DNA of 18,151 nt from Deltaproteobacteria bacterium (GTDB taxonomy: Bacteria; Bdellovibrionota_B; Oligoflexia; Oligoflexales; Bog-1112), in assembly GCA_016186945.1 (NCBI GenBank), contig JACPKR010000042.1:1-18151 (forward strand), written 5' to 3'. Positions 1 to 17,878 of the stretch are shown here, one piece after another; the stretch's first letter is position 1; each line of letters opens with the position of its first letter. The notes under the pieces are model-generated. The model did not search any database. It was not told the DNA's origin and saw nothing but the letters and a program-made list of their open reading frames with translations. The translations under genes were made by a program, and so were the position numbers.

Positions 1-531
1 CCAAATAAGTTCGAGTCGAGGGAACAAGTTCTTCAACTTATTCAACAGCTGCACTGCACCACTCCTATCTTGAATGTCAGCTGGATGAACAACTACCTTC
101 ATTAGTAGCCCGCAAGTATCGACAACGATATGTCGTTTGACTCCGTTAATCTTTTTTCCAGCATCAAACCCATGCTCTCCACCGGTTTCGGTGTTTTTTA
201 CCGATTGGCTGTCGATAATGGCCGCACTTGGTTCAGGGTCTTTTTCTTCACAAAGAACTCGTGTAGCTTTTCGCAGTTCCCCGTTCATTTTTTCCCAAAT
301 TCCACGCAAGTGCCAAACTCGAAAGTAAAAATATGCTGTCCACCAAGGAGGAAGGTCATGAGGAATGATCCTCCACTGACAACCTGACCTGGCAACAAAA
401 AAAATTGCGTTTAAGATTTCACGCCATCCGTATTGACGAGGCCGACCTTCTGATTTTTCTAGTGGCATGAAAACGCGCAATACTCCCCACTCGTCATCTG
501 AGACGTCCGTCTGATATTGTCTTCTTTCCAT
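1..531 (-). CDS. IS5-family transposase, N-terminal part, runs off left edge
   Basis: I translated the minus strand from an ATG at 531; the frame stays open for 177 codons to the window edge, so the 3' part lies outside. The product resembles transposases of the IS5 family (IS427/IS1031-like, DUF4096 N-terminus). It has an aromatic-rich N-terminal half with CQWRIIPHDLPPWW (residues 51-64), then IIDSQSVKNTETGG (105-118), where Asp107 should be the first acidic residue of the DDE catalytic triad, then GKKINGVKRHIVVD (125-138). The sequence stops at LELIW, just before the expected second Asp. A GGAG ribosome site lies 7 bases upstream of the ATG. No frameshift is seen in the visible part, so it may be an intact insertion sequence. 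I could not assign its terminal inverted repeat with confidence. Confidence 0.88.
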   Translation of the reverse strand, partial: MERRQYQTDVSDDEWGVLRVFMPLEKSEGRPRQYGWREILNAIFFVARSGCQWRIIPHDLPPWWTAYFYFRVWHLRGIWEKMNGELRKATRVLCEEKDPEPSAAIIDSQSVKNTETGGEHGFDAGKKINGVKRHIVVDTCGLLMKVVVHPADIQDRSGAVQLLNKLKNLFPRLELIW

Positions 532-2425: not shown

Positions 2426-2436
2426 AAGATGAGCTT

Positions 2437-3219
2437 ATGAAGGTAATAATTTTGGCTGGTGGATTTGGAACTAGAATGTCCGAAGAGACCTCAGTTATTC
2501 CAAAACCAATGGTTCCGATCGGAAATAAGCCGATATTGTGGCACATCATGAAAACCTACAGTCACTATGGATTTAACGACTTTGTCGTGCTTTTAGGCTA
2601 CAAGGGAGATTCTATAAAGAATTTCTTTTTGAACTATTATACCTCTCAAAGCGATATTTGCATTGACCTGAATACAAATTCAGTAGATTTTTTGGAATCG
2701 CGCTCAGATCCGTGGAGTATTACGTTGCTGGAAACGGGGCCGGATTCACTGACTGGCAGCCGAATTAAATTAGCCGAGAAGGTCATTAACAATCAACCTT
2801 TTATGTTAACGTATGGAGACGGTGTCTCTGACATCAATATTCCTGCTTTGATAGAATGCCATCAAAAGTCAAGAAAATTGGCTACACTATCTTCAGTTCA
2901 GCCAGAAGGACGCTTTGGAAGTCTAGGATTCGGATCCAATGGTGAAGTCATTTCGTTCAATGAAAAAATTGCTGGTGATGGTAGTTGGATAAACGCCGGC
3001 TTCTTTGTCTGCGAGCCTGAAGTTTTTGGCTATATAGGCGAGGGCAGTAGAGTTACCTTTGAGAGAGAACCTTTGGAGAAACTTGCTAGAGACGGACAGC
3101 TAAACTCTTACAAGCACAATGGATATTGGAAATGTATGGATACTTTATCTGATAAAATGAAACTCAACGAAATATGGAATACAGGTCATCCACCATGGAG
3201 AGTTTGGAGTGAACCCTGA
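2437..3219 (+). CDS. rfbF: Glucose-1-phosphate cytidylyltransferase RfbF
   Basis: RfbF joins CTP and alpha-D-glucose-1-phosphate to give CDP-glucose, the first committed step of CDP-dideoxyhexose synthesis, in the cytoplasm. The N-terminus KVIILAGGFGTRMSEET carries the nucleotide-binding GxGTR signature, followed by PKPMVPIG with the conserved Lys. TYGDGVSDINI supplies the metal-binding Asp, and NAGFFV and GYWKCMDTLSDK are typical of this family. I chose the ATG at 2437 because it gives the standard RfbF N-terminus and 260 residues, close to the usual 257. A GTG at 2422 would add five residues and overlap rfbH. The 3' end overlaps rfbG by 11 bases, which suggests coupled translation. Confidence 0.95.
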   Translation: MKVIILAGGFGTRMSEETSVIPKPMVPIGNKPILWHIMKTYSHYGFNDFVVLLGYKGDSIKNFFLNYYTSQSDICIDLNTNSVDFLESRSDPWSITLLETGPDSLTGSRIKLAEKVINNQPFMLTYGDGVSDINIPALIECHQKSRKLATLSSVQPEGRFGSLGFGSNGEVISFNEKIAGDGSWINAGFFVCEPEVFGYIGEGSRVTFEREPLEKLARDGQLNSYKHNGYWKCMDTLSDKMKLNEIWNTGHPPWRVWSEP

Positions 3220-4294
3220 CTACCGAAATGCATTTGAGAGAATTTATCGAGGGAAGAGAGTCCTTGTGACCGGCCACACCGGCTTTAAGGGGGTTTGGCT
3301 GTCTCTGATGTTGCAGGAGCTAGGGGCGGAGGTTTTTGGGATTGCTTTGCCGGCAGATACCGAACCAAACTTGTTTTCTATTGCCCCCTTGAAAATTCAC
3401 TCCAATTTTGTAGACATTCGAAATTTCAAAGAGATATCAAGATCGGTTGAGAATGCAAACCCTGAAATTGCTTTTCACCTTGCCGCACAACCACTTGTAA
3501 TACGTTCTTATAAAGACCCAATCGCGACCTACGAAACAAACGTCATGGGGACGGTGCACCTATTTGAGGCCTTAAAAACACAAAAGTTGGTAAGGGCAAT
3601 TGTTTGCATTACGACGGATAAAGTCTATCGTCAGAGTCAGGGACGAAGACACTACCGGGAAGATGACCTTCTTGGAGGGAAGGATCCATACAGTGGTTCC
3701 AAGGTATGTGTGGAATATATATGTGAACAATTTCGACATCTATTTATGGAAAAGAATGTTCTTCTTTCTGTTGCGCGCGCCGGAAATGTACTTGGTGGAG
3801 GAGATTGGTCAGCAAATAGAATCTTGCCAGACTTAATTAGGAGCTTTATCAATGGAAGGGTTGTCAAGATTCGGCATCCAGAGGCAATTCGGCCGTGGCA
3901 GCATGTTCTCGATTGCATTCATGGGTATTTAATCATCGGTGCGCATCTCTTACAAAACAAATCCGATGTCGCTAAGGCTTGGAATTTCGGTCCTGATCGA
4001 GATAGGTTGATTACGGTACGCGAGGTCGTTGATCGCGTGCGCAATCATTTCGACGGTCTCAAGATTGAGATCTCTTCCTCGGCATACCCAGAAAATCAGT
4101 TTTTAGCTCTCGATAGTTCAATGGCAAGAAACGAACTTCATTGGCATCCGCATTACACGTCCGAGGAAGCCATCGAAGAGTCTATTCTGTGGTATAAAAA
4201 TTACTACCAGAGCGGCCGAGCAAATTGCTTCGAAGCTCTAGAAAAATTCTGGAGTAAAAGCCCCCATTATAATTCTATGGAAGCCAACTCATAG
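3209..4294 (+). CDS. rfbG: CDP-glucose 4,6-dehydratase RfbG
   Basis: RfbG converts CDP-glucose to CDP-4-keto-6-deoxyglucose with tightly bound NAD, supplying the substrate of RfbH. It is an extended short-chain dehydrogenase/reductase. The Rossmann motif TGHTGFKG lies near residue 20, FHLAAQPLV is the strand-4 region, TTDKVY carries the catalytic Thr and Asp, and YSGSK gives the YxxxK pair. The 361-residue length is usual. The start is a GTG at 3209 with GGAG at 3197-3200 (spacing 8); the nearby ATG at 3228 is out of frame. The gene overlaps rfbF at its 5' end. At its 3' end it overlaps the convergent reductase gene by 20 bases, leaving no room for a terminator between them. Confidence 0.95.
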   Translation: MNPDYRNAFERIYRGKRVLVTGHTGFKGVWLSLMLQELGAEVFGIALPADTEPNLFSIAPLKIHSNFVDIRNFKEISRSVENANPEIAFHLAAQPLVIRSYKDPIATYETNVMGTVHLFEALKTQKLVRAIVCITTDKVYRQSQGRRHYREDDLLGGKDPYSGSKVCVEYICEQFRHLFMEKNVLLSVARAGNVLGGGDWSANRILPDLIRSFINGRVVKIRHPEAIRPWQHVLDCIHGYLIIGAHLLQNKSDVAKAWNFGPDRDRLITVREVVDRVRNHFDGLKIEISSSAYPENQFLALDSSMARNELHWHPHYTSEEAIEESILWYKNYYQSGRANCFEALEKFWSKSPHYNSMEANS

Positions 4295-5075
4295 CAAGGT
4301 TTCCAATATTCCTGCTAAGACAATGAGGTTCTCGTCGAATTCGAAGTTGCTTGAAGAGTTCCGTAAGCGGAACCCTAGAAACGAGTGTTTTTGGGTCGCT
4401 TGGCCTTCCCTGGTAGGTTCCGAAATTAAACCGAGCCGAGTTCCGAACAAAATGTTCCTGCGCTAAGCTTACAAGCTGACGGATAGAATATCCTTTTCCT
4501 TCACCGATTTCGATATCCTCCAGTCCCGGCTCGAAGTTTGAAACTTCAGTAGCAAAATGCATGATTATGGCAACAAGATCCTCGATATAGACGAAGTCTC
4601 GAATTTGAAATCCATATGACAAATCCATCTGCTGGTTTTTTGCTGCTGCGTGAACGATCTTATCCACGACGGAATCCATGGGAGGACCATAGATAATGTG
4701 TGGCCTTAAGTTCACAACTTGATATCGGTCGGAAAATCCAGCAAGGTATTCTCGAAACATGCATTTGGTCTTACTGTAGAGGTTCGTTTCTTGTGGCAAT
4801 ATAGTATCTATATTAATGACTCTGCGAAGGGGGGCTTCGCTGAGTTTTTCAAGAATTCTCTTTGGAAAAAAGTAGTTTGCCTCGTATACATCATTTCGAG
4901 AGGTGCCCTCCCCATAATTCGTAGCTAAATGTACAAAGCAAGTCCAATGACCTCCTCGGCAATTTTCTCCTTTTTCGAGGTTATGAAAATTGATGTTTTT
5001 CTTTCCTAAATGTTGGCAAACAACTGAACCAAGTCTTCCAGTACCACCCGTGACGAGGATATTTGCGTTTGACAT
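4275..5075 (-). CDS. NAD(P)-dependent SDR, probable CDP-abequose/paratose-type synthase (RfbJ/RfbS-like)
   Basis: This extended SDR probably reduces the 4-keto group of CDP-4-keto-3,6-dideoxyglucose made by RfbF, RfbG and RfbH, giving CDP-abequose, CDP-paratose or an isomer. The 266-residue product has VTGGTGRLG (residues 8-16) as dinucleotide-binding motif, HLATNYG (49-55), which resembles HLATEYG of Salmonella RfbJ, and YSKTK (100-104) as the YxxxK catalytic pair. It also has RPHIIYGP and QIRDFVYIEDLV, again RfbJ-like. The segment between the glycine motif and HLA is clearly shorter than in RfbJ, so the protein is unusually compact. The ATG at 5075 has GGAG 6 bases upstream; a TTG at 5081 is also in frame. 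It is transcribed against the rfb genes. Which dideoxyhexose it makes cannot be told from sequence. Confidence 0.75.
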   Translation of the reverse strand: MSNANILVTGGTGRLGSVVCQHLGKKNINFHNLEKGENCRGGHWTCFVHLATNYGEGTSRNDVYEANYFFPKRILEKLSEAPLRRVINIDTILPQETNLYSKTKCMFREYLAGFSDRYQVVNLRPHIIYGPPMDSVVDKIVHAAAKNQQMDLSYGFQIRDFVYIEDLVAIIMHFATEVSNFEPGLEDIEIGEGKGYSIRQLVSLAQEHFVRNSARFNFGTYQGRPSDPKTLVSRVPLTELFKQLRIRREPHCLSRNIGNLAMSWLP

Positions 5076-5137
5076 AACCAACTCCGATCCATAGACGCGA
5101 ACGGTTCTTCAATTTCTGCAGTGTGGTCTCACTCTCG

Positions 5138-5167
5138 TTGCCATCACGGCAAGAAACTCGATATATT
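5138..5167 (+). promoter_or_regulatory. Candidate sigma70 promoter for the 5227-9004 gene group
   Basis: TTGCCA at 5138-5143 and TATATT at 5162-5167 are separated by 18 bases and each match the sigma70 boxes at five of six positions. They lie in the divergent gap between the reductase and the membrane transferase genes. The site was found by eye only; no start-site evidence is available. Confidence 0.35.
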
Positions 5168-5226
5168 TGATTGATTTTGGAGGAATTACAGACAATAATA
5201 GAAAATCTCATCAATTTAGGCTTTTT

Positions 5227-7056
5227 ATGGATTCACTTCTGTTTATTGGAAATCTTTTTTTACTTTTAAGTAGTTCTTTACTATTGACGGAAAAATTCAT
5301 ACCGAGCAGCTCTTTCGCTGCAAAAGGAATCCTGTGCTTTCTTCTCATGGTTCTTTTTATTTCCATTGAAACTTTGATACTTGGTTTGTTCGGCTATCTA
5401 AATAAAAATATGATTAGTCTTGGAACCATGATCATTGCCATTGCTGTTTCCTTAAAATATTCTAAAGTTACAGTACTATACAATTTTCGCACCATTTCGT
5501 TTTTTTTTAGTTCCCTGCCTTTAGTCTTGAATATCTTAACGGTATTTTTTGTCGCGGTCCTTGCTTGGCATGCTTACCTTAACACACTTTTGCCAATTCA
5601 TGTTTGGGATGTTTTGGTTTATCACATGCCAAACGTGGCGGAATGGGTTACACATAGCAGGATTTTTGAAATCCACACGTGGGTGGATCGCAGTCATTAT
5701 ATGCCGATGGGCTTCGAAACTATTCTAACTTGGGTGGGTGTTTTTTTTCACCACGATTTGCAACTACGATTCGTTGAATACACATTTGGACTGATTGGCT
5801 CGGTTGTCTGCTACGACTTCTGCAGGCTTCTCATGGATGGCAAACATCGAAATTTCGCGTTCTTTTTGGCGATAACGTTTTTCTTAACACCGGCGATTTT
5901 AATCCAAATTTTGGCCACTAGAAACGATTTAAGTACGAATATATTGTATCTTACAACCCTTCTCTTTATGGCTCGGACGATTGTAAGCAAAGATTCAAGG
6001 TATCTAGCGATCGCGACCTTAAGCGCAGGTTTGGCTCTAAATTTTAAACCGATAGCTCTTGTTTTTCTTACGCTTTTCTATACTACTTTTGCCATTGCAA
6101 TGCTCATTCAGTGGGGTTTTAGAACCGCCTTAATCCGTGTAGCGCTGTCTGGAATCGCTTGCCTCTTTATCGGCTCGCCGTGGTATTTAAAAAACTGGAT
6201 CATATACGGCCATCCTATTGAAGCAATTCAAAACGCCGGCTCCCGACATATGGTATCCCTTTTCAATTTTAGCGACTTCTCGACCCATTTCTGGAGTGTT
6301 TGGTATAAACTCTTGGATCGAGGTACGCCATTTTCAAGTGACCTAACTGGAAGTTCCGGGTTCGGGCCTATATTTTTTGGTTTTTTCTTTACTATGGGAT
6401 GCCTTCTTTTATGCTACCGTTTTATTGGCGAAGGAAAAGAGAAAGGTAAAAAAGGTGACTTACTTGCTCCATTGTGGATTACGGCTACCGCGTTTTTAGG
6501 AATATTCATAATCATCCAGTATTTAAGTCATGACAATCCATGGAACTTTAGATATTTTAGCTGGATATCAATTGTCCCCTTTCTTCTTATGGGATTTCTA
6601 GTCTCTAAAAACCAAATATCGAAGCTTAATTGTATTCCCTTTCTTGTTTTTTCCTCAATATATGGATTTATGACTTCATATACGTCCGGCGATACGTCTG
6701 ATGGAGTTGTTTCCCATATGAAAAGTAAAGCTATGTTCGAACGGTCAAGCGCAATGAGTGCTCGATTTATGCCGGACCCTCATCGATACGTAGGCTATTT
6801 TGTTCCCACCAAATTTCCGATCGGATATAGGGGAGCTAATGGTGCTGATTGGTTCGTCTATCCTCTTTATGGGACATGGTTTTCCAGACAGGTCCATCAC
6901 TGCCATGAAGCAAATAACCTTCAAGAACTAAAAAACTGCCTTTCCAAAAATGGAGTAAAATTCGCCATCATAGCTGATTCTCTCGCTCCTGAAGTTCGGG
7001 CTAGTAAGAACTTCATAGAGATCCGGCCTTTCGTATTCTATTGGAGGGAGGGATGA
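5227..7056 (+). CDS. Polytopic GT-C-like (ArnT/PMT-type) glycosyltransferase
   Basis: The protein of about 609 residues has many hydrophobic segments (roughly ten or more helices) and a short soluble C-terminal tail. After four N-terminal helices comes VWDVLVYHMPNVAEWV, matching the acidic first periplasmic loop of family 39-type lipid-phosphate-sugar transferases (an Asp followed by YHxP and a Trp-rich stretch). Such enzymes move a sugar from a polyprenyl-phosphate donor on the periplasmic face. Start choice is uncertain. The ATG at 5227 has only a weak AGG upstream, while a strong GGAGG at 5179-5183 has no good start codon near it, and a TTG at 5167 is also in frame but overlaps the candidate -10 box. 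Its stop overlaps the next gene's ATG. Donor and acceptor are unknown; a flippase-independent O-antigen role is possible. Confidence 0.7.
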   Translation: MDSLLFIGNLFLLLSSSLLLTEKFIPSSSFAAKGILCFLLMVLFISIETLILGLFGYLNKNMISLGTMIIAIAVSLKYSKVTVLYNFRTISFFFSSLPLVLNILTVFFVAVLAWHAYLNTLLPIHVWDVLVYHMPNVAEWVTHSRIFEIHTWVDRSHYMPMGFETILTWVGVFFHHDLQLRFVEYTFGLIGSVVCYDFCRLLMDGKHRNFAFFLAITFFLTPAILIQILATRNDLSTNILYLTTLLFMARTIVSKDSRYLAIATLSAGLALNFKPIALVFLTLFYTTFAIAMLIQWGFRTALIRVALSGIACLFIGSPWYLKNWIIYGHPIEAIQNAGSRHMVSLFNFSDFSTHFWSVWYKLLDRGTPFSSDLTGSSGFGPIFFGFFFTMGCLLLCYRFIGEGKEKGKKGDLLAPLWITATAFLGIFIIIQYLSHDNPWNFRYFSWISIVPFLLMGFLVSKNQISKLNCIPFLVFSSIYGFMTSYTSGDTSDGVVSHMKSKAMFERSSAMSARFMPDPHRYVGYFVPTKFPIGYRGANGADWFVYPLYGTWFSRQVHHCHEANNLQELKNCLSKNGVKFAIIADSLAPEVRASKNFIEIRPFVFYWREG

Positions 7057-8252
7057 CTATGTTGACAACTGGATTTTTTTTTAAGACGTTAAAAACAATT
7101 CTAATGCTCATCAGTTGCCTTGCTTTCATATTTTATACCTACGGTAACATAATTAGAATTAGAGATGGGTCGTCATACTTTTTTCCGTTTTTTAAAAGTA
7201 TTATAACTAATAGCGATCAAAAAGAGTGTGTGCCTTTGAAAAATGATTCTGTTCCACTATGTGTGAATGACTCTTTTCCGGCAATGAACTCTCTCCTCCT
7301 AAGAAACCTAAATCAGAACTTCGGAGATATAAGGAGTTTCAAGGAAATAGGTATTCAGAAGCAATCTACAGGGGATATTCCTGCTCCGAAAGATATCGAC
7401 GATTTGTTGGAGATTGGTCAACAAGACTGCCTATATGAGCTTCTCAACACAAGTGAGGGAACATTTGTCATCAAAATGAAAACAAAATTTGCTTGCCGGA
7501 ACTCCTATTTTAGAGCAGATGTAGTCCCCGGATTTAAAGGCAAAATCATCGAAATGACATTTGACGTAGAACGTCCAGGTTCTGATGATTTAATTCCAGA
7601 GATTCATCTAGCGGGAAAAACGAAAATCACTCATTCGGACCACAATGGGTGGGCGCAATTTGCTCAACGGTTACCACGAATCCCGCATGACAATGATCTT
7701 GTCTCCGTTGACGGCGAATTTAGTTTTTCTGTGAAAAAGGGAACTCATCAGCCGTACATAGAAACCGGCCGCTCAATTTTCGCCGGTGTGGGGACGTGGC
7801 CACAGGCTGGACAAGAGCTAATGGTCATCTATCAAAAATACTTCGAAGGAATTAAGCCTATTGATGATAGCTACCCGCGGGAAGGACTCTTTTTGAACTC
7901 CTACCTTGAACACGGTGGTGAAACTACGAAGGTCCATGTCACCGCCTTGCTTCCTAATGAGGATTCATGGTCATTTTATGCAAACTTAAACTCACTTAGC
8001 AAAGATAATTGGAACCTTCGCTCTGTGACGGTCCATTTGGCGGAAGGTCCATTGAAAACCTCAGTGACTGCCCTATCCGCCCTCGATTACGACTACGCCA
8101 TTGCAATGGTGGAGAATGGCGTTTGTCCAAGCAATTCCGTAAAGTGTATATTTAAGGAACTAGCTGTTTTTCACGAAGCTTTGGGAGTATCAAGCAGTAT
8201 TAACGGCGACCTATCTTTCAGCAGTGATTTTACGTCCTCTAACGTGCCATAA
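7053..8252 (+). CDS. Exported or membrane-anchored protein of unknown family
   Basis: I do not recognise this protein of about 399 residues. One hydrophobic segment near the N-terminus (about residues 9-30) is followed by a long soluble part, so it is probably an inner-membrane-anchored periplasmic protein. The soluble part contains several Cys residues, an aromatic-rich middle (GVGTWPQAGQELMVIYQKYF) and alternating polar/hydrophobic strands, which would fit a beta-sandwich; that is only a guess. The ATG at 7053 overlaps the TGA of the preceding GT-C gene (ATGA) and lies behind a very strong purine-rich ribosome site, so the two are translationally coupled and probably work together. A second ATG at 7059 is also possible. 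The DPM1-like GT2 gene follows 11 bases later. Confidence 0.6.
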   Translation: MTMLTTGFFFKTLKTILMLISCLAFIFYTYGNIIRIRDGSSYFFPFFKSIITNSDQKECVPLKNDSVPLCVNDSFPAMNSLLLRNLNQNFGDIRSFKEIGIQKQSTGDIPAPKDIDDLLEIGQQDCLYELLNTSEGTFVIKMKTKFACRNSYFRADVVPGFKGKIIEMTFDVERPGSDDLIPEIHLAGKTKITHSDHNGWAQFAQRLPRIPHDNDLVSVDGEFSFSVKKGTHQPYIETGRSIFAGVGTWPQAGQELMVIYQKYFEGIKPIDDSYPREGLFLNSYLEHGGETTKVHVTALLPNEDSWSFYANLNSLSKDNWNLRSVTVHLAEGPLKTSVTALSALDYDYAIAMVENGVCPSNSVKCIFKELAVFHEALGVSSSINGDLSFSSDFTSSNVP

Positions 8253-8263
8253 CGGAACCTGTC

Positions 8264-9004
8264 GTGAAGATTGACTTATCTATCATCATGTGCAGCTTCA
8301 ATGAAGAAGCCTGGATCCAAAAATCACTAAACGATTTGCATCAATCAATCGATTCAAGATCTGAGTCTGTGGAGATTCTTTTGATCGACAATGGATCGAA
8401 TGATGGAACTAGAGATGTTATTAAAAAAATTAAAGACCCCCGTTATCGAATATTTTTCAATGACAAAAACATAGGAAAAGGAGGTTCGATTAAAAAAGGA
8501 ATTCAGAACTCTACCGGCAAATATATTGTGATTCATGACCCCGACTTTGAATATCGAGCAAGCGATCTATGGAGGTGTTACGACTCTATTACTTCCCAAC
8601 CGGTCGAATGCATCCTCGGCAGCCGTCTAAAAGGATCAAAGATTCGATTTATTTATCTAACCAACCTTCTCGGAGTCATCTTTTTGTCGAAACTGATAAG
8701 TTGGCTATACAATTGCGAAATATCAGATGGGGCAACGGCGATGAAGATGTTTCACGCTTCGACCTTGAAGAATCTTCAACTCGCTTCCAGTGGCTTCGAT
8801 CTTGATTTTGAACTTATTACGAAAACAAGACTAGCAAAAGGATCAATAGGAGAAATTGCAATTGAGTACTTCCCACGGACCTTCAAAGAGGGAAAAAAGA
8901 TTCGAGCGCTTCAAGATGGAATAAAGGCACTATTTGTGATTTTGAGAGATCGATATCAATTTTTTCAAAGAATCTCCTATCGCTTCTACCCTTCAGCCAA
9001 TTAA
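8264..9004 (+). CDS. GT2 glycosyltransferase, DPM1-like
   Basis: This is a GT-A fold family 2 transferase of 246 residues. LSIIMCSFNEEAWI opens the nucleotide-binding fold, LLIDNGSNDGTRDVI follows, and NIGKGGSIKKGI and HDPDFEY supply the donor-binding and DxD-like acidic region. GSRLKGS and the DGATAMKMF region are typical of polyprenyl-phosphate mannose or glucose synthases such as DPM1. It likely makes a polyprenyl-phosphate sugar, which would feed the GT-C protein two genes upstream; that link is inference. The start is a GTG at 8264 with a weak GGAA upstream. The last four codons and the stop lie inside the 47-bp direct repeat, so the C-terminus may have been set by the repeat. Confidence 0.82.
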   Translation: MKIDLSIIMCSFNEEAWIQKSLNDLHQSIDSRSESVEILLIDNGSNDGTRDVIKKIKDPRYRIFFNDKNIGKGGSIKKGIQNSTGKYIVIHDPDFEYRASDLWRCYDSITSQPVECILGSRLKGSKIRFIYLTNLLGVIFLSKLISWLYNCEISDGATAMKMFHASTLKNLQLASSGFDLDFELITKTRLAKGSIGEIAIEYFPRTFKEGKKIRALQDGIKALFVILRDRYQFFQRISYRFYPSAN

Positions 9005-9041
9005 GGAAGCATGCTTCGCATGCTACTTGCTAGGAGGAGGC
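8995..9041. repeat. 47-bp direct repeat, copy 1
   Basis: The 47 bases at 8995-9041 recur at 16065-16110 with a single missing T. The copy contains the end of the GT2 gene, a 10-bp palindrome (AAGCATGCTT, 9007-9016) and the left arm of a 12-bp hairpin stem. Copy 1 continues into the right arm and terminator; copy 2 does not. The two copies bracket the six-gene operon. Confidence 0.93.
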
Positions 9042-9058
9042 TTGGACCTCCCCCTAGC
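9029..9058. repeat. Inverted repeat (12-bp arms, one mismatch)
   Basis: The left arm 9029-9040 (GCTAGGAGGAGG) pairs with 9047-9058 (CCTCCCCCTAGC) with a single A-C mismatch and a 6-base loop. The left arm is also the last part of the repeated 47 bases, so the homology with copy 2 ends exactly at the hairpin apex. The right arm could alternatively pair with GGAGGTC at 9138-9144, which would enclose the terminator hairpin. Confidence 0.8.
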
Positions 9059-9062
9059 TAAC

Positions 9063-9105
9063 GCGCGTATCGAGCCATAGCTTCGCAATGGCTGACGCGC
9101 TTTTT
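9063..9105 (+). terminator. Rho-independent terminator after the GT2 gene
   Basis: GCGCGT (9063-9068) pairs with ACGCGC (9095-9100) and AGCCAT (9073-9078) with ATGGCT (9088-9093), with a 4-versus-1 internal bulge and a 9-base loop, followed at once by TTTTT (9101-9105). This should stop transcription of the 5227-9004 genes. The operon that starts at 9438 would then need its own promoter, which I could not identify. Confidence 0.7.
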
Positions 9106-9146
9106 GGGCCTAAAGGCCGAGGTCTGTACCACTGAGGAGGTCTAGG

Positions 9147-9447
9147 AAAATTCTCCACGAATTTTTAGTCGAGCAGCTGATCAAAAAAGCAAGGATTGCC
9201 TTTATAGACTGCGACCTTAAAGAACCAACTAAACTCGTCCTAGATTGGTTGCGCCCAGTAATGCAGGACGGATGATCTTGATCATGGACGAGTTTTCTCG
9301 TACAATGGCAGCAATTCGAAGGGTCTTCCTGGTGCTTTTAACGATTTCTGCCGGGAAAATCCCAATCTCTCCTTCCGTTTTCTATATAGCTACGGATGTG
9401 GCGGGGTTGCTTATATTCTTTCGGACGCGGGGGAAAGTTGTCGATAA
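9147..9447 (+). pseudogene. TylF/macrocin-type O-methyltransferase, truncated and frameshifted
   Basis: Three reading frames in succession encode the C-terminal third of a SAM-dependent TylF-family methyltransferase. Frame one gives IAFIDCDLKEPTKLVLDW, then LRPVMQDG. The frame breaks near 9270-9272 and continues as MILIMDEF, breaks again near 9296, and continues with YNGSNSKGLPGAFNDFCREN and the family-typical YSYGCGGVAYIL, ending at TAA 9445-9447. The conserved DCDL and GCGG motifs and the correct order leave little doubt about the family. The N-terminal two thirds are missing: recognisable sequence begins directly after the structured repeat element. Its stop overlaps the start of the HAD gene, so it was probably the first gene of this operon. 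Confidence 0.82.
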
Positions 9448-10133
9448 AAGGCATCATCCTTGACCTCGATGATACGCTTATCGACTCAGAACGAGCCTAT
9501 GGCGAGGCTCTTGAAGCGCTGAATTTGTCGGCCAGTAGTACCGACTTCGTGACCGCGCGCGAGACCGTAAAAAATCGCCTGCCAGCCGAGCATGTAAGTG
9601 CTCGCAACCGCATTCTCTATTTCAAGTGCCTTTTGGAAACTCGCGGCGACTTCAACGCGACCAACTTACTAAGTATCATGACCTCGTACGAGAAATCATT
9701 GGCGACTTCTATAGAACGTCAATGGCGACAACTGTGTCGAGAGTCACTATTTGCAAACCTAACATCCAGGGCTGCGCTAATTGTTGTTACGAATGAGAAC
9801 TTGCGAACACAAGCTATCAAAATCCGCGCCATGGATCCCGATGGCTTATATTTTTCGAAGGTTGTCTGCTCTGAAGAGTACGGCGCAGAAAAGCCAGATC
9901 GCCGGCTTTATGAAGCGGCGTTGTCACGCCTTGCCCTCAAGCCAAGCGAATGCGCCGTGGTAGGAAATCACTTTGAAAACGATATTGAACCGGCACTTCG
10001 ATTAGGGATGATAGCCTTCCTCTCGATCGAATTCGCAAAAAATACACCCACAAAAATTGGTCGACCGCCGGTTTGCAAGGACGTGACCATTCTCGACGCG
10101 TTGGATCAAATTGAAGATGCATTGCATGGGTAG
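9438..10133 (+). CDS. HAD-superfamily (subfamily IA) phosphatase
   Basis: This 231-residue haloacid dehalogenase-type hydrolase probably removes phosphate from a small phosphorylated metabolite in the cytoplasm. Motif I is DLDDTLID (nucleophile Asp9, acid/base Asp11), the motif II Thr is in VVTNEN, the motif III Lys is in GAEKPDRRLYEAAL, and motif IV is VVGNHFENDIEPA, where the usual first Asp after Gly is Asn. A helical cap lies between motifs I and II. I chose the TTG at 9438, which puts motif I at the normal distance from the N-terminus and overlaps the upstream methyltransferase stop; no ATG or GTG fits. Its stop overlaps the aldolase ATG by 8 bases. The substrate is unknown; a phosphorylated sugar from the neighbouring aldolase is a reasonable guess. 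Confidence 0.85.
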   Translation: MSIKGIILDLDDTLIDSERAYGEALEALNLSASSTDFVTARETVKNRLPAEHVSARNRILYFKCLLETRGDFNATNLLSIMTSYEKSLATSIERQWRQLCRESLFANLTSRAALIVVTNENLRTQAIKIRAMDPDGLYFSKVVCSEEYGAEKPDRRLYEAALSRLALKPSECAVVGNHFENDIEPALRLGMIAFLSIEFAKNTPTKIGRPPVCKDVTILDALDQIEDALHG

Positions 10134-11055
10134 CGATAGCAGCGTAGTTCGTCTAGCTGAAGTTTGCCGCCAAGTCGGGTCCTGCATTCCCTATTGGAAT
10201 CAAGGTCAAGGGGGCAATGTCTCTCTTAAGGTAACCGTCAATAACGTCGAGTCCCTCTACATAAAGGCTTCTGGCTACCGCCTTGGTGAAGTCACAGCAG
10301 AGAAAGGCCTCGCCTGTCTCAATCTGTCAAAGTTTAGGGCTGCCCTTGCCCAAGTCTTGGGTGAAAAGGCCTATGCGGATCTCTTGAGCGACCAGACCTT
10401 TCGGCTGGCTTTTCACGAGGCCCAGCCATCAATGGAGACGATCTTTCACGTCCTTCTGCCTTCGCCCTGCGTTATTCACTTTCATTCTGTGGCAGCCCTC
10501 ACGATGGCGCACATCGCTGCAAAGACGCCAGTTCGCTGGTCCTCATGGCTTGCCGCTACGGCTTTCGATCGCGTAGCTATCGTCTCAAGGATGAGTCCCG
10601 GTCTTCAGCTTGGATTGACCTTAGGAGCAAAGGCCGATTGCCAAGTATTGCTGCTCGAAAATCACGGAGTCGTCTTACAAGGAGACGATTGGTCAATGGT
10701 TGAGAAATGGAAGGATTTCGAAAGGAAGTTTTGCATCGAATGGGGCCACCCGGCTTTGGTTCCGGCTGGAAAGACTTACGTTGGCGGAACGGCGCCGTTG
10801 CGCCTGTATTTCCCCGACACAGCAGTATTTTTGCCGCGTATAAAAGCGTTGCTGCAAGCAAAATTCCAAGGTAAGCAGGGCGAGATCCAGTGGCAAGCCC
10901 ACCCATCTTCCGAAATTACCGATCGCAACGCCTTGGAAATCTGGCTTGCGACCACACTTTTGTATGAAAGCTGCCCCGACTTGCCTGAGATTCCCCGAGA
11001 CCTCGCGGCAAAAATTGCTGGGCTGCCAACCGAACAGTTTAGAAAGTCAACATGA
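10126..11055 (+). CDS. Class II aldolase/adducin-family protein
   Basis: The 309-residue protein belongs to the zinc-dependent class II aldolase (fuculose/rhamnulose-phosphate aldolase) family. QGGNVSLKV (residues 28-36) is the phosphate-binding loop. PSMETIFHVLLP carries Glu104, the likely catalytic acid, VIHFHS gives zinc ligands His118 and His120, and LLLENHGVVLQG gives the third ligand His180. Family members cleave or form ketose-1-phosphates using dihydroxyacetone phosphate, or epimerise pentulose phosphates. About 100 residues follow the catalytic part, more than in simple aldolases. The ATG at 10126 overlaps the HAD stop; ATG 10117 and TTG 10111 are also in frame. Next to a phosphatase, a kinase-like domain and a nucleotidyltransferase it probably builds a precursor rather than degrading a sugar; that is inference. 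Confidence 0.85.
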   Translation: MGSDSSVVRLAEVCRQVGSCIPYWNQGQGGNVSLKVTVNNVESLYIKASGYRLGEVTAEKGLACLNLSKFRAALAQVLGEKAYADLLSDQTFRLAFHEAQPSMETIFHVLLPSPCVIHFHSVAALTMAHIAAKTPVRWSSWLAATAFDRVAIVSRMSPGLQLGLTLGAKADCQVLLLENHGVVLQGDDWSMVEKWKDFERKFCIEWGHPALVPAGKTYVGGTAPLRLYFPDTAVFLPRIKALLQAKFQGKQGEIQWQAHPSSEITDRNALEIWLATTLLYESCPDLPEIPRDLAAKIAGLPTEQFRKST

Positions 11056-12638
11056 CTCCAATTCAACTTCTTATTCCTATGTCCGGCCAAGGCAACCGCT
11101 ATCAAAAGGCGGGATACACTCAACCAAAACCGCTCATTCCCGTATCCGGGATACCGATGATAGAGCGACTGCTCGGGTGCTTTCCCGAGCGTTGGCCGAC
11201 CACGTTCGTTTTGGCTATTAACCACAAAAAAACGCCGCTACCCGCTGTTCTGTCTGGGCTACGCCCCCAGGGCCAACAAATTTTCATCCCCAAGCACGCC
11301 CTGGGCCCTGGCCACGCAATCTCGAGTGCCCTGGCACACATGGATCCCAACGGACCGGTCCTCGTAAGCTATTGTGACTACGGAATGGTCTGGAGCAGTC
11401 GCCAATTTGAAGATTTTGTCAGAGAGTCGGAATGCGACGCCTGCGTAGTATCGTACCGTGGCTTCCACGCTCACTACCTCAGACAGACCAACTACGCATT
11501 TTCCCGCTTAGACAATGAACGAGTCGTTGAGGTCAGAGAAAAAGGCAATTTTACCAACGATCGCGAACAGGAATTTGCGTCCTGTGGTGCTTACTATTTC
11601 CGGACGGTGAAGATCCTAGAGCGCGCATTGAAATCTCAGATTGAACAAAATCTATCTCTCAACGGTGAATTCTACGTCAGCCTAACGGTCCAGGCGCTTT
11701 TAGCTGCTGATCCAAATGCCCACGTCAGGGTCTTCGAGATTCCCGCCTTTTTCCAGTGGGGAACCCCCGAAGATTTACGCAACTTTGAATATTGGGAAAA
11801 AGGCATGTCTAGTGCCAGCCGAAATGCCTCTCGACCACTTGCCGGAGTGTCACAGCTCCTGATGCCTATGGCCGGAAAAGGATCTCGCTTTCGGTCGATG
11901 ACTAGTATTCCAAAACCCTTTTTGCAGATTAACGAATACCGACCCATGTACGCCTATGCACTTGCAACGCTTCCTCCGGCAAAATCGGAAGTTTTCGTAG
12001 CGCTCGAAGAACATCGGCCGCACATCGACGCTGCGAAAGCCGATAGTTTCACTTTCCTGTCCCAAACCCCGGACGGCCAAGCCCTATCGACCGAAGCGGG
12101 TTTGGGAAATATCGACCATTCACGCGACGTCCTCGTTTCTTCCTGTGATCACGGCTTAGTCCTTGATCCGGAAGCATGGGGAAAATTCATCAAGAACCCC
12201 CGGTGTGATGCCGCCATTTTTGTCGTGCGCGGCTACCCGGGCGCTCGGCGTCGACCCACCGCTTACGCGTACGTCGAGACGGTTAACGATCAAGATTCTT
12301 ACCCAAAAGTGAGCGGTGTAAGCGTAAAAAAGCCACTTTCCGATGCACCGGAGCGGGACTATATCTTGGTAGGAACATTCTGGTTTGCCCGTGGCGGACT
12401 ATTACAGTCAGCCATTGCTCGCCTTAAGTCCGAAAACATTCGAGTGAATGGCGAACTCTATTTAGACTCAATCTTTCCGCTCATGCTTGCGGGTGGTAGC
12501 ATAGTTCGGGTCATAGAACTCGACGGCTACGTGAACTGGGGGGATCCAGACGCCCTTGCGGAGGCCCTCTATTGGCAAGAGGTTTTCTCCTGCCACCGAC
12601 TCGATCGACGCCCGCGCTTTCCTGGAGTTAAATTCTGA
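11052..12638 (+). CDS. Tandem two-domain sugar/polyol-phosphate nucleotidyltransferase
   Basis: The 528-residue protein consists of two NTP-transferase domains in a row. Domain 1 (about 1-250) opens with LIPMSGQGNRYQKAGYTQPK, domain 2 (about 265-515) with LLMPMAGKGSRFRSMTSIPK. Each then has a degenerate metal motif (SYCDYG near 107-111, SSCDHG near 363-368), an NGE(F/L)Y motif (204-208 and 466-470) and a closing (Q/N)WG(T/D)P(E/D) (235-240 and 495-500). Domain 1 keeps GPGHAISSAL; domain 2 has a changed segment there, so it may have a different substrate or be catalytically poor. The reaction is presumably NTP plus sugar- or polyol-phosphate giving an NDP-derivative. The gene starts with an ATGA overlap on the aldolase gene and ends one base into the next start. 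Confidence 0.85.
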   Translation: MTPIQLLIPMSGQGNRYQKAGYTQPKPLIPVSGIPMIERLLGCFPERWPTTFVLAINHKKTPLPAVLSGLRPQGQQIFIPKHALGPGHAISSALAHMDPNGPVLVSYCDYGMVWSSRQFEDFVRESECDACVVSYRGFHAHYLRQTNYAFSRLDNERVVEVREKGNFTNDREQEFASCGAYYFRTVKILERALKSQIEQNLSLNGEFYVSLTVQALLAADPNAHVRVFEIPAFFQWGTPEDLRNFEYWEKGMSSASRNASRPLAGVSQLLMPMAGKGSRFRSMTSIPKPFLQINEYRPMYAYALATLPPAKSEVFVALEEHRPHIDAAKADSFTFLSQTPDGQALSTEAGLGNIDHSRDVLVSSCDHGLVLDPEAWGKFIKNPRCDAAIFVVRGYPGARRRPTAYAYVETVNDQDSYPKVSGVSVKKPLSDAPERDYILVGTFWFARGGLLQSAIARLKSENIRVNGELYLDSIFPLMLAGGSIVRVIELDGYVNWGDPDALAEALYWQEVFSCHRLDRRPRFPGVKF

Positions 12639-13369
12639 TGACGTTAAAATTCGAACTAGTCATTCCTGCATACAACGAGTCAAAATCGCTGGGTTCACTT
12701 TTTGAACGCTGCGTCAATGCAGCGCGGACACATGGATTTACTTCCTCGCAGTTCCAGCTGGTTGTTGTTCAAAATGGCAGTATGGACGATTCTCCAGCTA
12801 CCTTGGAAAAACTCAAAAGCGGCCCCCTAGGTGAGTGGTTCCGTGTCGTCAACATTGTTACTAATCAAGGCTATGGCAACGGCATTTGGACCGGCCTCCA
12901 GTCAACCAGCGCCGACTACGTCGGTTGGACCCATGCCGATATGCAGTGCGACCCAACGGATGCGATGAAAGCCTATCAGATGTGCACCGCAGCGACAGGT
13001 CAAAACCTAGTCGTGAAAGGGGTTCGCACCAAGCGAAATTGGAAGGACTGGTGTGTGAGCCGAGTTTTTGAGTTTTTCATCAAGTTCTTTTTAGGGTTTC
13101 GCGTCTTCGAAGTAAACGCCCAGCCAAAAGTGTTTCGCCGGGAATTGCTCACTAGCTTGAAAAATCCGCCAAAAACGTTTGCCTTCGACCTATACGTTCT
13201 CTATCACTCGGTAAAAGCGAAGTACCAGATTCAATCCTTCGAGGTAGCTTTTCCTCCGCGCATCCACGGGGTTTCCAAATGGGCCGCAACCTTTTTTGGG
13301 CGCTATAAGACTATCCTAGGCATGATCCGTTACATGCAAGTCTTAGCTCGGACAGAAGGTCGCCTGTGA
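12638..13369 (+). CDS. GT2 glycosyltransferase (DPM1/DPG-type)
   Basis: This 243-residue family 2 transferase carries FELVIPAYNESKSLGSLFER at the N-terminus, VVVQNGSMDDSPATL, NQGYGNGIWTGL and THADMQCDP, the acidic donor-metal motif in the DAD-x-Q form seen in polyprenyl-phosphate hexose synthases. GVRTKRNW and FDLYVLYHSV are the acceptor-side conserved parts. It has no clear transmembrane helix, only a short hydrophobic stretch near FFIKFFLGF. The gene overlaps the nucleotidyltransferase by one base (TGATG) and the next gene by GTGA. It may transfer the activated product of the preceding enzymes to a lipid carrier, which the GT-C domain encoded next could then use; this order is inferred. Confidence 0.85.
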   Translation: MTLKFELVIPAYNESKSLGSLFERCVNAARTHGFTSSQFQLVVVQNGSMDDSPATLEKLKSGPLGEWFRVVNIVTNQGYGNGIWTGLQSTSADYVGWTHADMQCDPTDAMKAYQMCTAATGQNLVVKGVRTKRNWKDWCVSRVFEFFIKFFLGFRVFEVNAQPKVFRRELLTSLKNPPKTFAFDLYVLYHSVKAKYQIQSFEVAFPPRIHGVSKWAATFFGRYKTILGMIRYMQVLARTEGRL

Positions 13370-15426
13370 AAGAACTGCTGCGGTCGCCGCTATTTTGGGC
13401 AGGTCTTCTGATCAGAACCGCTCTTATGCCGTTCTTTGTGGGTAAAATCCCCGAGACCTCTATCATTCCCTTTTTGGATTTTACCGTCCAAAATCTTGGT
13501 ACCAATCCTTGGGGGCAACTGCCGGCGGAATCATTTCCCTACGGGATCGTGTCTTTGTTGCTGATGGCATTTCCCCGCTGGTTGGGGTTCCTGCTAGTGG
13601 GAGCCAGCGCTCTCGGCACTTCCGCGCTAGGGTTGTGTTTGTATAAATTGCCGCTTCTTGGCTTGGACTTGTTTCTTTTTCTTGTTCTGACGCGATTGTG
13701 CGAATACCGCTCCCGCATGCTGCTAATTTTCTACTGGCTCAACCCTGTTTTGATTTACATAAGCTACATACACGGCCAGATCGACGTAGCTTCCATAGCA
13801 TTCCTAGCACTGTCGCTAGTCATGCTCGGCAAAGACCGTCCAGTTGGAACCGCGGTTGCATTGGCTGCGGCAACATTGTGCAAATTTCAGGTGGCGTTGG
13901 CGCTGCCGATTTATATGGCATTCATCTGGCGCCAAAAGTACCCCGGCGCCGCCCTGGCCAGTCTTGCCAAACTGCTACCGATCCTTGGCGCCCTGTCGTT
14001 TCTTGGGTTCTTGCCGATCATTATGGCTAATAAACTCGACTATGTAACGATAGCATCGCCGCAGGCGGCGTCCATCTTTGGTGCTTGGATTCACTACGGC
14101 CATGAGACTGTCCTGTACCTCGGTGTTTCGGTCGTCGCAATGATCCTCGGGCGGCAAATCATTGTCTCCCCTGTCAAGCCCCTTGGGCTTGCCTACGGTT
14201 TTGCGGTGGTGTTCGGCGCGATTATTCTGGTAACCGACCCAGGCCCTGGGTGGTACTTTTGGTTTTATCCCTTTCTCGCCATTCTCATGGTCCATCAATT
14301 TAACGTGCCACGCTCCCTCTACTGGCTCAGCGTCGCTCTCTATTTTCTACATTTCGCTGGAGTCGACCTCCTCGGATTGGCTTCACGTTTCCCGGCATCC
14401 CATGAAAGCTTGACCTTCACTCTTATACAGACGTGCCACATGGGTCTCATGATCGTCATCATCAAGATTGTGTGGGCAGAGCATATGCCGATTCTTTCAC
14501 GGACTCGACCGGTGTTGATCGGCATAGCTGGTGATTCAGGCACCGGAAAAAACACCCTGAGCGAGGGTCTAATCAAAGTCTTTGGCGATTCGGGAATGAG
14601 TCTCATTGAAGGCGACGACTACCATAAATGGGAGAGACACCATGAAAAATGGGGAGACTATACTCATCTTGATCCGAAGGCGAATAACCTAGCCGACTGG
14701 GCATCTCACGTTGACAATCTGATCTTGGGGCGCTCGGTCTACCAGCCTCACTACGATCACAGCCAAGGGACATTTACCTCGCCGCGCGAACTTCGGCCAA
14801 ACCGAACCTTAGTGGTTCAAGGACTCCATACATTTTTCCTGAAAAGCATGCGCCGGCATTTCGCCATCAAGGTATTTCTGGCCCCCGATCCGATGATTCG
14901 CCTAGCGTGGAAGATTCACCGCGACGTTCATCTCCGCGGTCACTCACTTGACAAGGTCATGAGCACAATCAAGGCTAGAGAGGCCGATTCCCGCCTGCAC
15001 ATAGATCCGCAACGTAAACTAGCCGATTGGATCATCGAGTATTTTTCCACCGAGACAATTACCCAGGAAAACCTCATCGAGGGCAAGGAATTTAAACTTG
15101 GGGTTCGTCATATCTTTTGGAACGACACCCCGGTTATGCCGCTTCTTGCCGAGCTGCGGGATCGCTATCAAGTTCATGTTGATATCAAAAATATTGAAGG
15201 CGACTTTGACCGGGTTTCAGTCACGATTATTGGTGATGCAATTACACCACAACAGATCGCCACACTTGCCGAGAGCACTTTTCCCAATCCTAGGCGAATC
15301 ACCCGGTCACACAAACCGCCGATTTGGGAAGGCGGGCTCGCCGGGATCAACCAACTTTTCGCGTTGGCACTCACTGAGCAACGTCTAGATCGAAAAGCAG
15401 CGTCGGGAGTTGAACGCAATGCCTAG
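13366..15426 (+). CDS. Fusion: GT-C membrane transferase plus uridine-kinase-like P-loop domain
   Basis: This 686-residue protein has two clearly different halves. Residues 1 to about 375 are polytopic, with WLNPVLIYISYIHGQIDVAS (124-143), the W-NP...HGQxD signature of mannosyltransferase-type GT-C proteins, and DPGPGWYFWFYPFL (291-304). Residues about 383-580 resemble uridine kinase/phosphoribulokinase: IGIAGDSGTGKNTLSE is the P-loop, with Asn396 where Ser or Thr is normal, and EGDDYHKW (415-422) carries acidic catalytic residues. About 100 further residues (VHVDIKNIEGDFDRVSVTII onward) form an extra domain I do not recognise. The join is continuous in one frame with no internal start needed. 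It begins with a GTG overlapping the GT2 stop. The kinase half would sit on the cytoplasmic side, tethered to the transferase. Confidence 0.85.
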   Translation: MKELLRSPLFWAGLLIRTALMPFFVGKIPETSIIPFLDFTVQNLGTNPWGQLPAESFPYGIVSLLLMAFPRWLGFLLVGASALGTSALGLCLYKLPLLGLDLFLFLVLTRLCEYRSRMLLIFYWLNPVLIYISYIHGQIDVASIAFLALSLVMLGKDRPVGTAVALAAATLCKFQVALALPIYMAFIWRQKYPGAALASLAKLLPILGALSFLGFLPIIMANKLDYVTIASPQAASIFGAWIHYGHETVLYLGVSVVAMILGRQIIVSPVKPLGLAYGFAVVFGAIILVTDPGPGWYFWFYPFLAILMVHQFNVPRSLYWLSVALYFLHFAGVDLLGLASRFPASHESLTFTLIQTCHMGLMIVIIKIVWAEHMPILSRTRPVLIGIAGDSGTGKNTLSEGLIKVFGDSGMSLIEGDDYHKWERHHEKWGDYTHLDPKANNLADWASHVDNLILGRSVYQPHYDHSQGTFTSPRELRPNRTLVVQGLHTFFLKSMRRHFAIKVFLAPDPMIRLAWKIHRDVHLRGHSLDKVMSTIKAREADSRLHIDPQRKLADWIIEYFSTETITQENLIEGKEFKLGVRHIFWNDTPVMPLLAELRDRYQVHVDIKNIEGDFDRVSVTIIGDAITPQQIATLAESTFPNPRRITRSHKPPIWEGGLAGINQLFALALTEQRLDRKAASGVERNA

Positions 15427-16042
15427 TCCAATCTTTATTGAACATCGAATCAATTCAATTGCGGCACTGGCGGGCGTTCACAAAGATCATGGAGTTGAAA
15501 TTGATCTGCGCTCAGATGTAGGTAACATCGGAAAACTTCATCTTTCCCACGATCCATGGATTCGAGGTGACGACTTCGATGATTGGCTGCGAGAGTATGT
15601 CGGGCTAGGCATCAAAGGGCCGCTTATTCTCAACACCAAGGAAGACGGCTTGGAACAGGCCGTGTTGGATCGAATGGAACTTGCAACCATCAGGAATTTC
15701 TTCTTCCTCGACACAGCTTTGCCGACCTTAGTCAAATGGAGCCTGAAAATGAGGCGGGATTGCTTTGCGCTGCGCCTATCTCAACACGAACCAGCGGCGC
15801 CGCTCGATAGCTTCAAGGGCCGAGCAAAATGGGTATGGGTTGATTGTTTTGATGGAGTCCCCCTTACCGCCGACATCCTTAGAAATATCAGCAACGATTT
15901 TAAGCTTTGCATTGTTTCCCCGGAGCTTCAGCAGCGGCCAATCGACGAAGTAGCTAAGTTTTCAGCTCTTCTGCCATTTGCTTCGGCTGTCTGTACTAAA
16001 GATCACAGAGTCTGGGAAACGTTGGCGAAAACAAAAACCTGA
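15419..16042 (+). CDS. GDPD/PI-PLC-like TIM-barrel phosphodiesterase, cytoplasmic
   Basis: This 207-residue protein matches the active-site pattern of glycerophosphodiester phosphodiesterases: EHR (His9, Arg10), VEIDLR (Glu27 and Asp29, metal ligands) and LHLSHDP (His44). Later strands (GPLILNTK, NFFFLDTALPTLVKW, WVWVDCFDG, KLCIVSPEL) follow the TIM-barrel order. It is shorter than most GDPDs and has no signal peptide, so it should act in the cytoplasm, perhaps on a phosphodiester-linked or nucleotide-linked glycerol or polyol intermediate. The ATG at 15419 overlaps the previous stop by 8 bases, with GGGAG upstream; a TTG at 15410 is also in frame. It is the last gene of the operon. A different activity on the same fold cannot be excluded. 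Confidence 0.75.
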   Translation: MPSPIFIEHRINSIAALAGVHKDHGVEIDLRSDVGNIGKLHLSHDPWIRGDDFDDWLREYVGLGIKGPLILNTKEDGLEQAVLDRMELATIRNFFFLDTALPTLVKWSLKMRRDCFALRLSQHEPAAPLDSFKGRAKWVWVDCFDGVPLTADILRNISNDFKLCIVSPELQQRPIDEVAKFSALLPFASAVCTKDHRVWETLAKTKT

Positions 16043-16064
16043 TCGTTCTCACCGAGAAGGCGAT

Positions 16065-16110
16065 AGCCAATTAAGGAAGCAGCTTCGCATGCTACTTGCT
16101 AGGAGGAGGC
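16065..16110. repeat. 46-bp direct repeat, copy 2
   Basis: Identical to 8995-9041 apart from one missing T within the central palindrome. It starts 22 bases after the GDPD-like stop. The match ends at 16110, at the point corresponding to the hairpin apex in copy 1. Beyond it the sequence is the coding strand complement of a truncated GT2, whose last codons (PPPSK and stop) are supplied by the repeat. Confidence 0.93.
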
Positions 16111-16661
16111 CCCTGCAAAAACCGATACATAAGTTCCACATCCGCCGCGATTTTGAAGTCTAACCGGTAATACTCATATTTTTCGAATAGCTCACGTTTG
16201 CAATAGAATGTGGATGCGCCGGGGTCCAACTTTTCTCAAACAAGCCATCTTGAAACGGCCGGGAAATCCATCTGCACGTGGTGTGCGTGGCGGTGGCGCG
16301 GTCTACATAAATCAAATCGCCATAGCAGCAATCAATGGAGTTGGACTGAAACGCCGATACCACGTTGGCAACCACAGTCCTGTCGTAAAACATATCATCC
16401 GAATTCAAGATTCCCACGATGTCACCTGCGGCCAGGCGGATGCCTCTGTTCATGGCGTCATACATCCCGCGGTCCTGCTCCGAAACAACGTGACGGATTT
16501 TGTACGATTGAATGATGTCTAGAGTGCCGTCTGTTGCCACCGTCCATGACAATGTGTTCGATATGGGGGTAAGACTGGGACAAAACAGACTCAATGGCCC
16601 CAGCGATAAACGCTTTGTTGTTAAATACAACGGTGATGATGGATTTTACCGGACCTCTCAT
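16092..16661 (-). pseudogene. GT2 glycosyltransferase (WcaA-like), two frameshifts and truncated
   Basis: Read on the minus strand from an ATG at 16661, the gene encodes SIITVVFNNKAFIAGAIESV, then IEHIVMDGG. The frame breaks near 16534-16540 (a DGGSTDGT-type motif is spoiled) and continues as TDGTLDIIQSYK, EQDRGMYDAMNRGI and GILNSDDMFYDRTVV. It breaks again near 16207-16212 and continues as FYCKRELFEKYEYY, then LDFKIAADVELMYRFLQG. The reading then runs into the repeat and stops at 16092-16094. The expected last 50 or so residues of this family are missing. The start codon overlaps the stop of the upstream membrane protein gene (ATGA), so the pair was an operon. Single-base sequencing errors could explain the shifts but not the truncation. 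Confidence 0.85.
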
Positions 16662-17878
16662 TTTATTTTTTCTAGCCAGGTATTTTTGATGGGTTTTAAA
16701 AAAAAGCAGACTGCAACAGATGCCAAAATGAGAAGTAAAAATTCTGTTGTCATGCGATTTCGGATAACCCCTTGATACAGAACATGGGGAAGCCAAAATA
16801 GAATAATCGATGATTGCACAATGAGAAATGCAAAACGATTTTGTTTGTATAAAATAGCGCTGCCTACCAAAGCAAGCAGCACATAAATCGTGTAAGGCAG
16901 CGTATACAGCAAATTCTTAAGAAACGAGGTGTTATTCGCATCATCCAGTCGAATATCCCAATACCGGATGGTTTTCCATCCGAAGTTGGCGAGGGTCTGA
17001 ATTGGATGAGTGTACATATAGGTAAAAGCGATTTTTGCGAGAAGTCGGTCTCGAATATAAGGGTCGGTTTCACGTCTTATATTTGCCGGAAGACCATGAT
17101 CGTGCTCAAGTTCTTCCAGATAGCCGGAAACGTAATAGCGTTTTGCGTAATAAGGAACCAGCGCATTATTGCTTAGGTATAAATTGTAACCGCTTAAGGG
17201 TGGGAAAGGTTTGAAGTGTCCCGTATCACGATACATCTTCAACGATAATAGTCCCAACAATCCCGCTAAGCAGAAACCCGACAAGAAAAGGGGGATCATT
17301 TTTTTTAACCATGTTTGGCGAGAGAGGGGGGATTTAAGGAAATGCCAAATCCCGAATCCATAAAAAAAACATACCAAAATAAGAGTATTGGAACGGATGC
17401 CAATGATTAAAAAGGATAATAACGCAAATATAAGCCCTGATTTTAATTTGTAGCCATGGGTGTGCCAATGCATAAAACTCACAATCATGCCGGCAAACAG
17501 TGTTACCACGATTCCTGCTTGGGGTTGCTGTGATGCCATGGACACATAGTAAGGAAGGAAGGCTACACCAGCTACACTCAACCATGCGATTTTGTTAGAC
17601 AATTTTAATTGCTGTGTGAGAAAATAAACCAAGGGTCCGATCAAGGCATGCAAGCAGACATGAAAAAAAATATAGAGCGGGAGTATATGACAACTCACCA
17701 TCCATAGCGTAGCCGCAATAATCTTATAGAGGGGGTACCAATAGGAATTTAGTGATATGGCAGGATTTTGAAAATAGGTGTAGTCCGTGGCAGCAGAGGT
17801 AACAAACACCACTGCCAAACGTGGAACTAAACAAGTTATCCAACTAACGACCAGCCAGCGTGTGATTATTGCCAACAT
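16658..17878 (-). CDS. Polytopic membrane protein, probable GT-C-type glycosyltransferase
   Basis: This protein of 406 residues has about ten hydrophobic segments. It resembles family 39/ArnT-like transferases only loosely: an early loop with SAATDYTYFQNPAISLNSYW and YPLYKII, then helices with SVAGVAFLPYYVSMASQQPQ, a larger soluble loop around GHFKPFPPLSGYNLYLSNNA and the HP-x-x-T-x-x-NFGWKTIRYW region, and four C-terminal helices. Loop residues such as GYNLYLSNNA followed by the arginine-rich RRETDPYIRDRL are typical of this class in polysaccharide loci. It is translationally coupled to the downstream GT2 pseudogene, so its partner enzyme is probably lost. It is intact itself. The ATG at 17878 is used; no strong ribosome site was noted. 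Confidence 0.6.
   Translation of the reverse strand: MLAIITRWLVVSWITCLVPRLAVVFVTSAATDYTYFQNPAISLNSYWYPLYKIIAATLWMVSCHILPLYIFFHVCLHALIGPLVYFLTQQLKLSNKIAWLSVAGVAFLPYYVSMASQQPQAGIVVTLFAGMIVSFMHWHTHGYKLKSGLIFALLSFLIIGIRSNTLILVCFFYGFGIWHFLKSPLSRQTWLKKMIPLFLSGFCLAGLLGLLSLKMYRDTGHFKPFPPLSGYNLYLSNNALVPYYAKRYYVSGYLEELEHDHGLPANIRRETDPYIRDRLLAKIAFTYMYTHPIQTLANFGWKTIRYWDIRLDDANNTSFLKNLLYTLPYTIYVLLALVGSAILYKQNRFAFLIVQSSIILFWLPHVLYQGVIRNRMTTEFLLLILASVAVCFFLKPIKNTWLEKIK

Follow-up and report, generated by a model that had tools for sequence, protein, structure and literature searches.

We propose that two copies of a small mobile element, which bracket a conserved six-gene glycan module in the window (the whole 18,151-nt stretch of DNA that was analysed), acted as the joints through which the module was gained; the evidence for this reading, which comes from the anatomy of the locus, is good but circumstantial. 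The repeat itself is a mobile element 184 bp long, non-autonomous and rich in hairpins, and its family is of a known kind. As to how the joints worked, we see about an even chance that the module was brought in by recombination between element copies.

The direct repeat and its surroundings

The two copies of the repeat lie in direct orientation at 8995-9041 and 16065-16110. They have 46 bases in common, one base being absent from the right copy, and an exact core of 29 nt; the chance expectation for exact repeats of 29 nt in the 18,151-nt window is about 7e-10, so the repeat is not a chance occurrence. The preliminary description of this DNA, which reported 46/47-bp direct repeats around a six-gene block, was right about their presence, one-base difference included, but the size it gave covers only the shared part, as the left copy runs on to 9179 as a 184-bp element. 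In other copies within the window's own genome (G000; 2.66 Mb in 76 contigs, 91% complete) the 46/47 bp form the left end of this longer element, and the right copy, which corresponds to its first 45-46 nt, is thus a left-end fragment. The features of the window are as follows.

1121-8252, left-flank glycan genes: DegT, NTP transferase, CDP-glucose 4,6-dehydratase, epimerase (minus strand), PMT-like membrane protein and an unknown
8264-9004, plus strand, intact GT2 gene of the left flank
8996-9179, plus strand, complete multi-hairpin element of 184 bp (left copy), 98% identical to copies on contigs C71 and C43
9180-9434, plus strand, 3' remnant of a sugar O-methyltransferase gene (CalS11/TylF-like)
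9396-10133, plus strand, module gene 1, HAD-type phosphatase (PF00702), a conserved neighbour in L038, L039, L041, L093 and L094
10111-11055, plus strand, module gene 2, class II aldolase-like (PF00596)
11052-12638, plus strand, module gene 3, tandem double nucleotidyltransferase (PF12804 twice), 50-58% identical in relatives
12638-13369, plus strand, module gene 4, GT2 glycosyltransferase (PF00535)
13366-15426, plus strand, module gene 5, membrane region (GT87-like by inspection) fused to a PRK/uridine-kinase domain (PF00485, residues 384-565)
15410-16042, plus strand, module gene 6, GDPD-like by motif, with no Pfam or NCBIfam match
16066-16110, plus strand, left-end fragment of the 184-bp element (right copy), cut in the loop of hairpin 2
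16111-16796, minus strand, GT2 pseudogene, its C-terminal part missing at the right element fragment
16658-17878, minus strand, right-flank membrane protein with no relatives among the genomes searched

The contig starts inside an IS5-family transposase gene (window 1-531), which probably accounts for the contig break at that point.

Structure and distribution of the element

The preliminary description named absence of the repeat from the rest of the genome and from relatives as grounds for refuting its reading; copies do occur elsewhere in the host genome, and they occur also in a relative. Besides the left copy, complete copies lie on contigs C71 (4499-4682, 184 bp) and C43 (182 bp, opposite strand), both 98% identical to window positions 8996-9179; a right-hand part, interrupted by another insertion sequence, lies on C42 and a short diverged piece on C49. 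The element contains six potential hairpins and, as single-stranded DNA, folds much better than shuffled versions of itself (z = -5.05). Covariation of the hairpins was set aside as evidence, the diverged copies being too few and yielding one compensatory pair. Its ends, read directly, are GCCAATTAAGG and GAGCAGCTG. The left copy is followed by ATCAA (9180-9184; TTGAT on the other strand), and the four right ends in the host genome are followed by ATCAA, GACAA, TTCAA and ATCAA, that is, by NNCAA in every case and by the complement of TTGAT in two.

No copy was found in viral, genome, plasmid and phage collections, and the weak BLAST matches in other genomes were, once read in context, attributable to chance. 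An Rfam search returned no match at the element. A TnpB omega RNA was considered and rejected, Rfam being negative and the TnpB relic by one copy in the relative lying on the wrong side for such an RNA. Of classical MITE features, no terminal inverted repeat was seen by eye, and no duplication was found at copies with both ends. The same genome does carry another family of intergenic repeats, about 138 bp long (L053 206-343; also L011, L012, L013, L015 and L052), a classical MITE with near-perfect terminal inverted repeats (ATGCGTAAGCCACTTGGGGCAA...), whose terminal sequence forms a tandem array of five at exact 45-bp steps in L015 (12705-12885).

The relative just mentioned, G005, is the genome of another genus in the host's family. 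A covariance model made from the host copies led to a second, diverged family of the same architecture there, and a DNA search then listed at least eight copies, which share an invariant right end and are either full or truncated on the left. These fold equally well as single-stranded DNA when set against shuffles (z = -6.45), and five of their right ends are followed by TCAA and one each by TTAA, TCAC and CCAA, so that TCAA (TTGA on the other strand) flanks most copies of both families. In L065 of this genome an element copy lies within a transposase-like relic, of which L057 contains an uninterrupted homologue. The empty site reads CTTTTAGATAGCCAAGTTTTCTGAGAAC and the occupied one CTTTTAG, the element and then TCAAGTTTTCTGAGAAC; CAA is part of the target and there is no target duplication. 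On the other strand this amounts to insertion 3' of TTGA-like sequence. The presence of both an occupied gene copy and its empty counterpart shows that the sister family transposes, the evidence for mobility being this single pair and belonging to that family.

Relation to known mobile systems

We infer the class of transposase from these features: a single-strand Y1/HUH transposase of IS200/IS605 type most likely acts on the element in trans, placing it next to TTGA without target duplication. It behaves like an IS200/IS605-type passenger, which is a likeness of behaviour and not proven membership. IS608 and ISDra2 insert at TTAC and TTGAT, respectively, without target duplication (PMC5934647, PMC8612924), and with such elements it shares subterminal hairpins at both ends and insertion, free of duplication, beside a short fixed motif, TTGA-type at most right ends and the very target of ISDra2 at two of the four in the host. 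It departs from them in packing five or six hairpins into 184 bp, in its looser motif (TTGNN) and in having no autonomous partner with the same ends among the Y1 loci of the two genomes. Four such loci were found in the host and twelve in G005, none of them flanked by the element, and neither genome yielded a transposase whose ends match. The host's own IS605 elements were rejected as the mobiliser, as their ends differ from those of the element.

There is also a resemblance to REP/BIME systems and their RAYT transposases (PMC3733652, PMC8266576), given that the element is intergenic, palindromic and found in mosaic fragments and that six of the twelve Y1 loci in G005 are RAYT-like paralogues. 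Unlike REP/BIME sequences, however, it is low in copy number and shows no GTAG tag at its ends; of the RAYT-like genes in G005, none is flanked by it. The RAYT-like paralogues of G005 (L086-L091) are about 78-86% identical to one another in DNA.

A conserved module between chimeric junctions

All six bracketed genes are intact, and their order recurs in L038, L039 and L041 (metagenome-assembled genomes titled Bdellovibrionales and Deltaproteobacteria) and in G049, G027, G036 and G030; the module is cut by contig ends in L039, L041, G036 and G030, L039 being without a GT2 match, and in G049 the GT2 gene is placed first. Rearranged versions occur in L040 (Oligoflexia) and L097. GDPD-like homologues beside the module in relatives are 36-51% identical, and the fusion of a membrane glycosyltransferase-like region to a phosphoribulokinase/uridine-kinase domain in gene 5 is kept across the relatives. 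Since gene order is conserved while the surroundings in distant relatives are different each time, the module is a unit found in varying locations. The methyltransferase was rejected as a member, as it does not adjoin the module in the relatives examined. Among the seven nearest genomes, of the same genus and family, the signature gene 3 had no match.

Composition changes at the borders: GC content is 51% inside the module versus 42% in the left flank and 44% in the right, against a genome background of about 48%, and the limits of the module coincide with the element copies and with the composition breaks. No relatives of the flank genes on either side were found among the genomes searched, the flanks being unique to the host genome, and the GT2 pseudogene at 16111-16796 had no match in 42 other genomes of the order.

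Both junctions are chimeric. On the left, the stop codon of the intact GT2 gene lies inside the element, as the preliminary description had it. The methyltransferase remnant on the inner side was likewise recognised there as lacking its N-terminus, but its start is 9180, where the full element ends, and not 9042: homology begins at the first codon past the element, the same point at which the TTGAT insertion motif lies. What remains, itself disrupted by frameshifts or stops, is the last third, matching residue 189 onward of a 271-aa homologue related to CalS11. The far side of the element holds a complete, unrelated GT2 gene and no N-terminal half of a methyltransferase, and the absence of these first two thirds from the other side of the element disfavours a plain insertion. 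On the right, a complete gene end precedes the element fragment and an N-terminal GT2 piece follows it, the GT2 C-terminal part being absent from the left of the fragment. The C-terminus is indeed gone and the last frame ends at a TAG inside the repeat, but the earlier remark that this gene borrows its stop codon has no functional meaning, since it is a pseudogene with several frameshifts.

Origin of the arrangement

The model that we favour can be laid out as a series of steps, whose order we infer from the junctions. The element would first have reached several loci, among them a methyltransferase gene adjoining the six-gene module. Recombination between copies would then have joined the element, the methyltransferase tail and the six genes to an element already present behind the GT2 gene, leaving one element on each side of the module. 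A subsequent deletion would have taken the greater part of the right copy and, with it, the end of the adjoining GT2 gene. The earlier proposal of an insertion or replacement by recombination between copies of an intergenic element thus draws support from the dispersal of the element, the coherent module found in other contexts, the composition break and the two chimeric junctions. Several points count against our model: no transposase with these ends turned up in the host or in G005, mobility is seen in one empty/occupied pair, from the sister family, the 46 shared bases are too few for a recombination tract to be detected, and, as the right copy has no right end, the product expected of a simple integration cannot be seen directly.

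The alternative that survives best, conceivable if somewhat improbable, is that two elements inserted independently into a locus in which the module was already present and that their neighbours decayed by unrelated deletions, with no exchange at all. Elements of the sister family do move on their own, other copies occupy single intergenic positions where no exchange is visible, glycan loci often contain pseudogenes, and the truncation of the right copy itself tells us that deletion beside elements does occur. This account does not, however, readily accommodate a methyltransferase cut exactly at an intact element end with its other half absent from the far side, nor the match of module limits to element copies and composition breaks. 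Recombination via the copies explains both junctions, while independent insertions need extra deletions that stop exactly at the element end, and it is for this reason that we favour the former.

It is distinctly unlikely that the two copies delimit a composite transposon which the transposase of the short element mobilised as one piece. Their common orientation around the module would suit such a structure, and in G049 the module does lie between direct repeats of a different transposon, namely copies of a transposase-like gene (L093 2178-2691 and 13567-14080; 514 bp, 99.6% identical), one of which is partly deleted. A right copy without its right end would nevertheless render the unit immobile now, 7 kb is large for single-strand movement of IS200/IS605 type, and a transposase with matching ends was not found in either genome. 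Finally, an assembly chimera at the left junction of this metagenome-derived genome is very improbable: although the genome is in 76 contigs, several of which end near copies, and the 184-bp left copy exceeds short-read length, the three complete copies differ from one another at several positions and lie inside contigs with different flanks, so that the assembler distinguished them, and the composition break and broken gene at the 46-bp right copy are independent of the long repeat.

Implications

Recombination at repeats or insertion sequences on either side is a means by which O-antigen and capsule cassettes are exchanged. The arrangement proposed here resembles such exchange in that a block of glycan genes would be swapped as a unit between common flanking sequences, and differs from it in what would serve as the common flank, namely a small hairpin element with no specificity for glycan loci. 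The other host copies adjoin murB, a serine recombinase (resolvase) gene and an ATPase/USP-like pair (names partly by inspection), and a preference for glycan loci, none being visible among these small numbers, is therefore unsupported. With three complete copies plus fragments, the others beside unrelated genes, the suggestion of a dedicated exchange element for surface-glycan loci is not supported. A broader and rather doubtful possibility is that hairpin elements, scattered by a transposase acting in trans, serve as portable recombination joints, allowing a fixed module of six glycan genes to be exchanged between surface loci among uncultured Bdellovibrio-like bacteria.

Taken together, the locus offers a concrete, testable case of a conserved glycan module entering a surface locus, and with it a description of a small mobile-element family in a little-studied bacterial group. 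The six-gene module, with its double nucleotidyltransferase and its membrane-kinase fusion, represents a conserved putative pathway.
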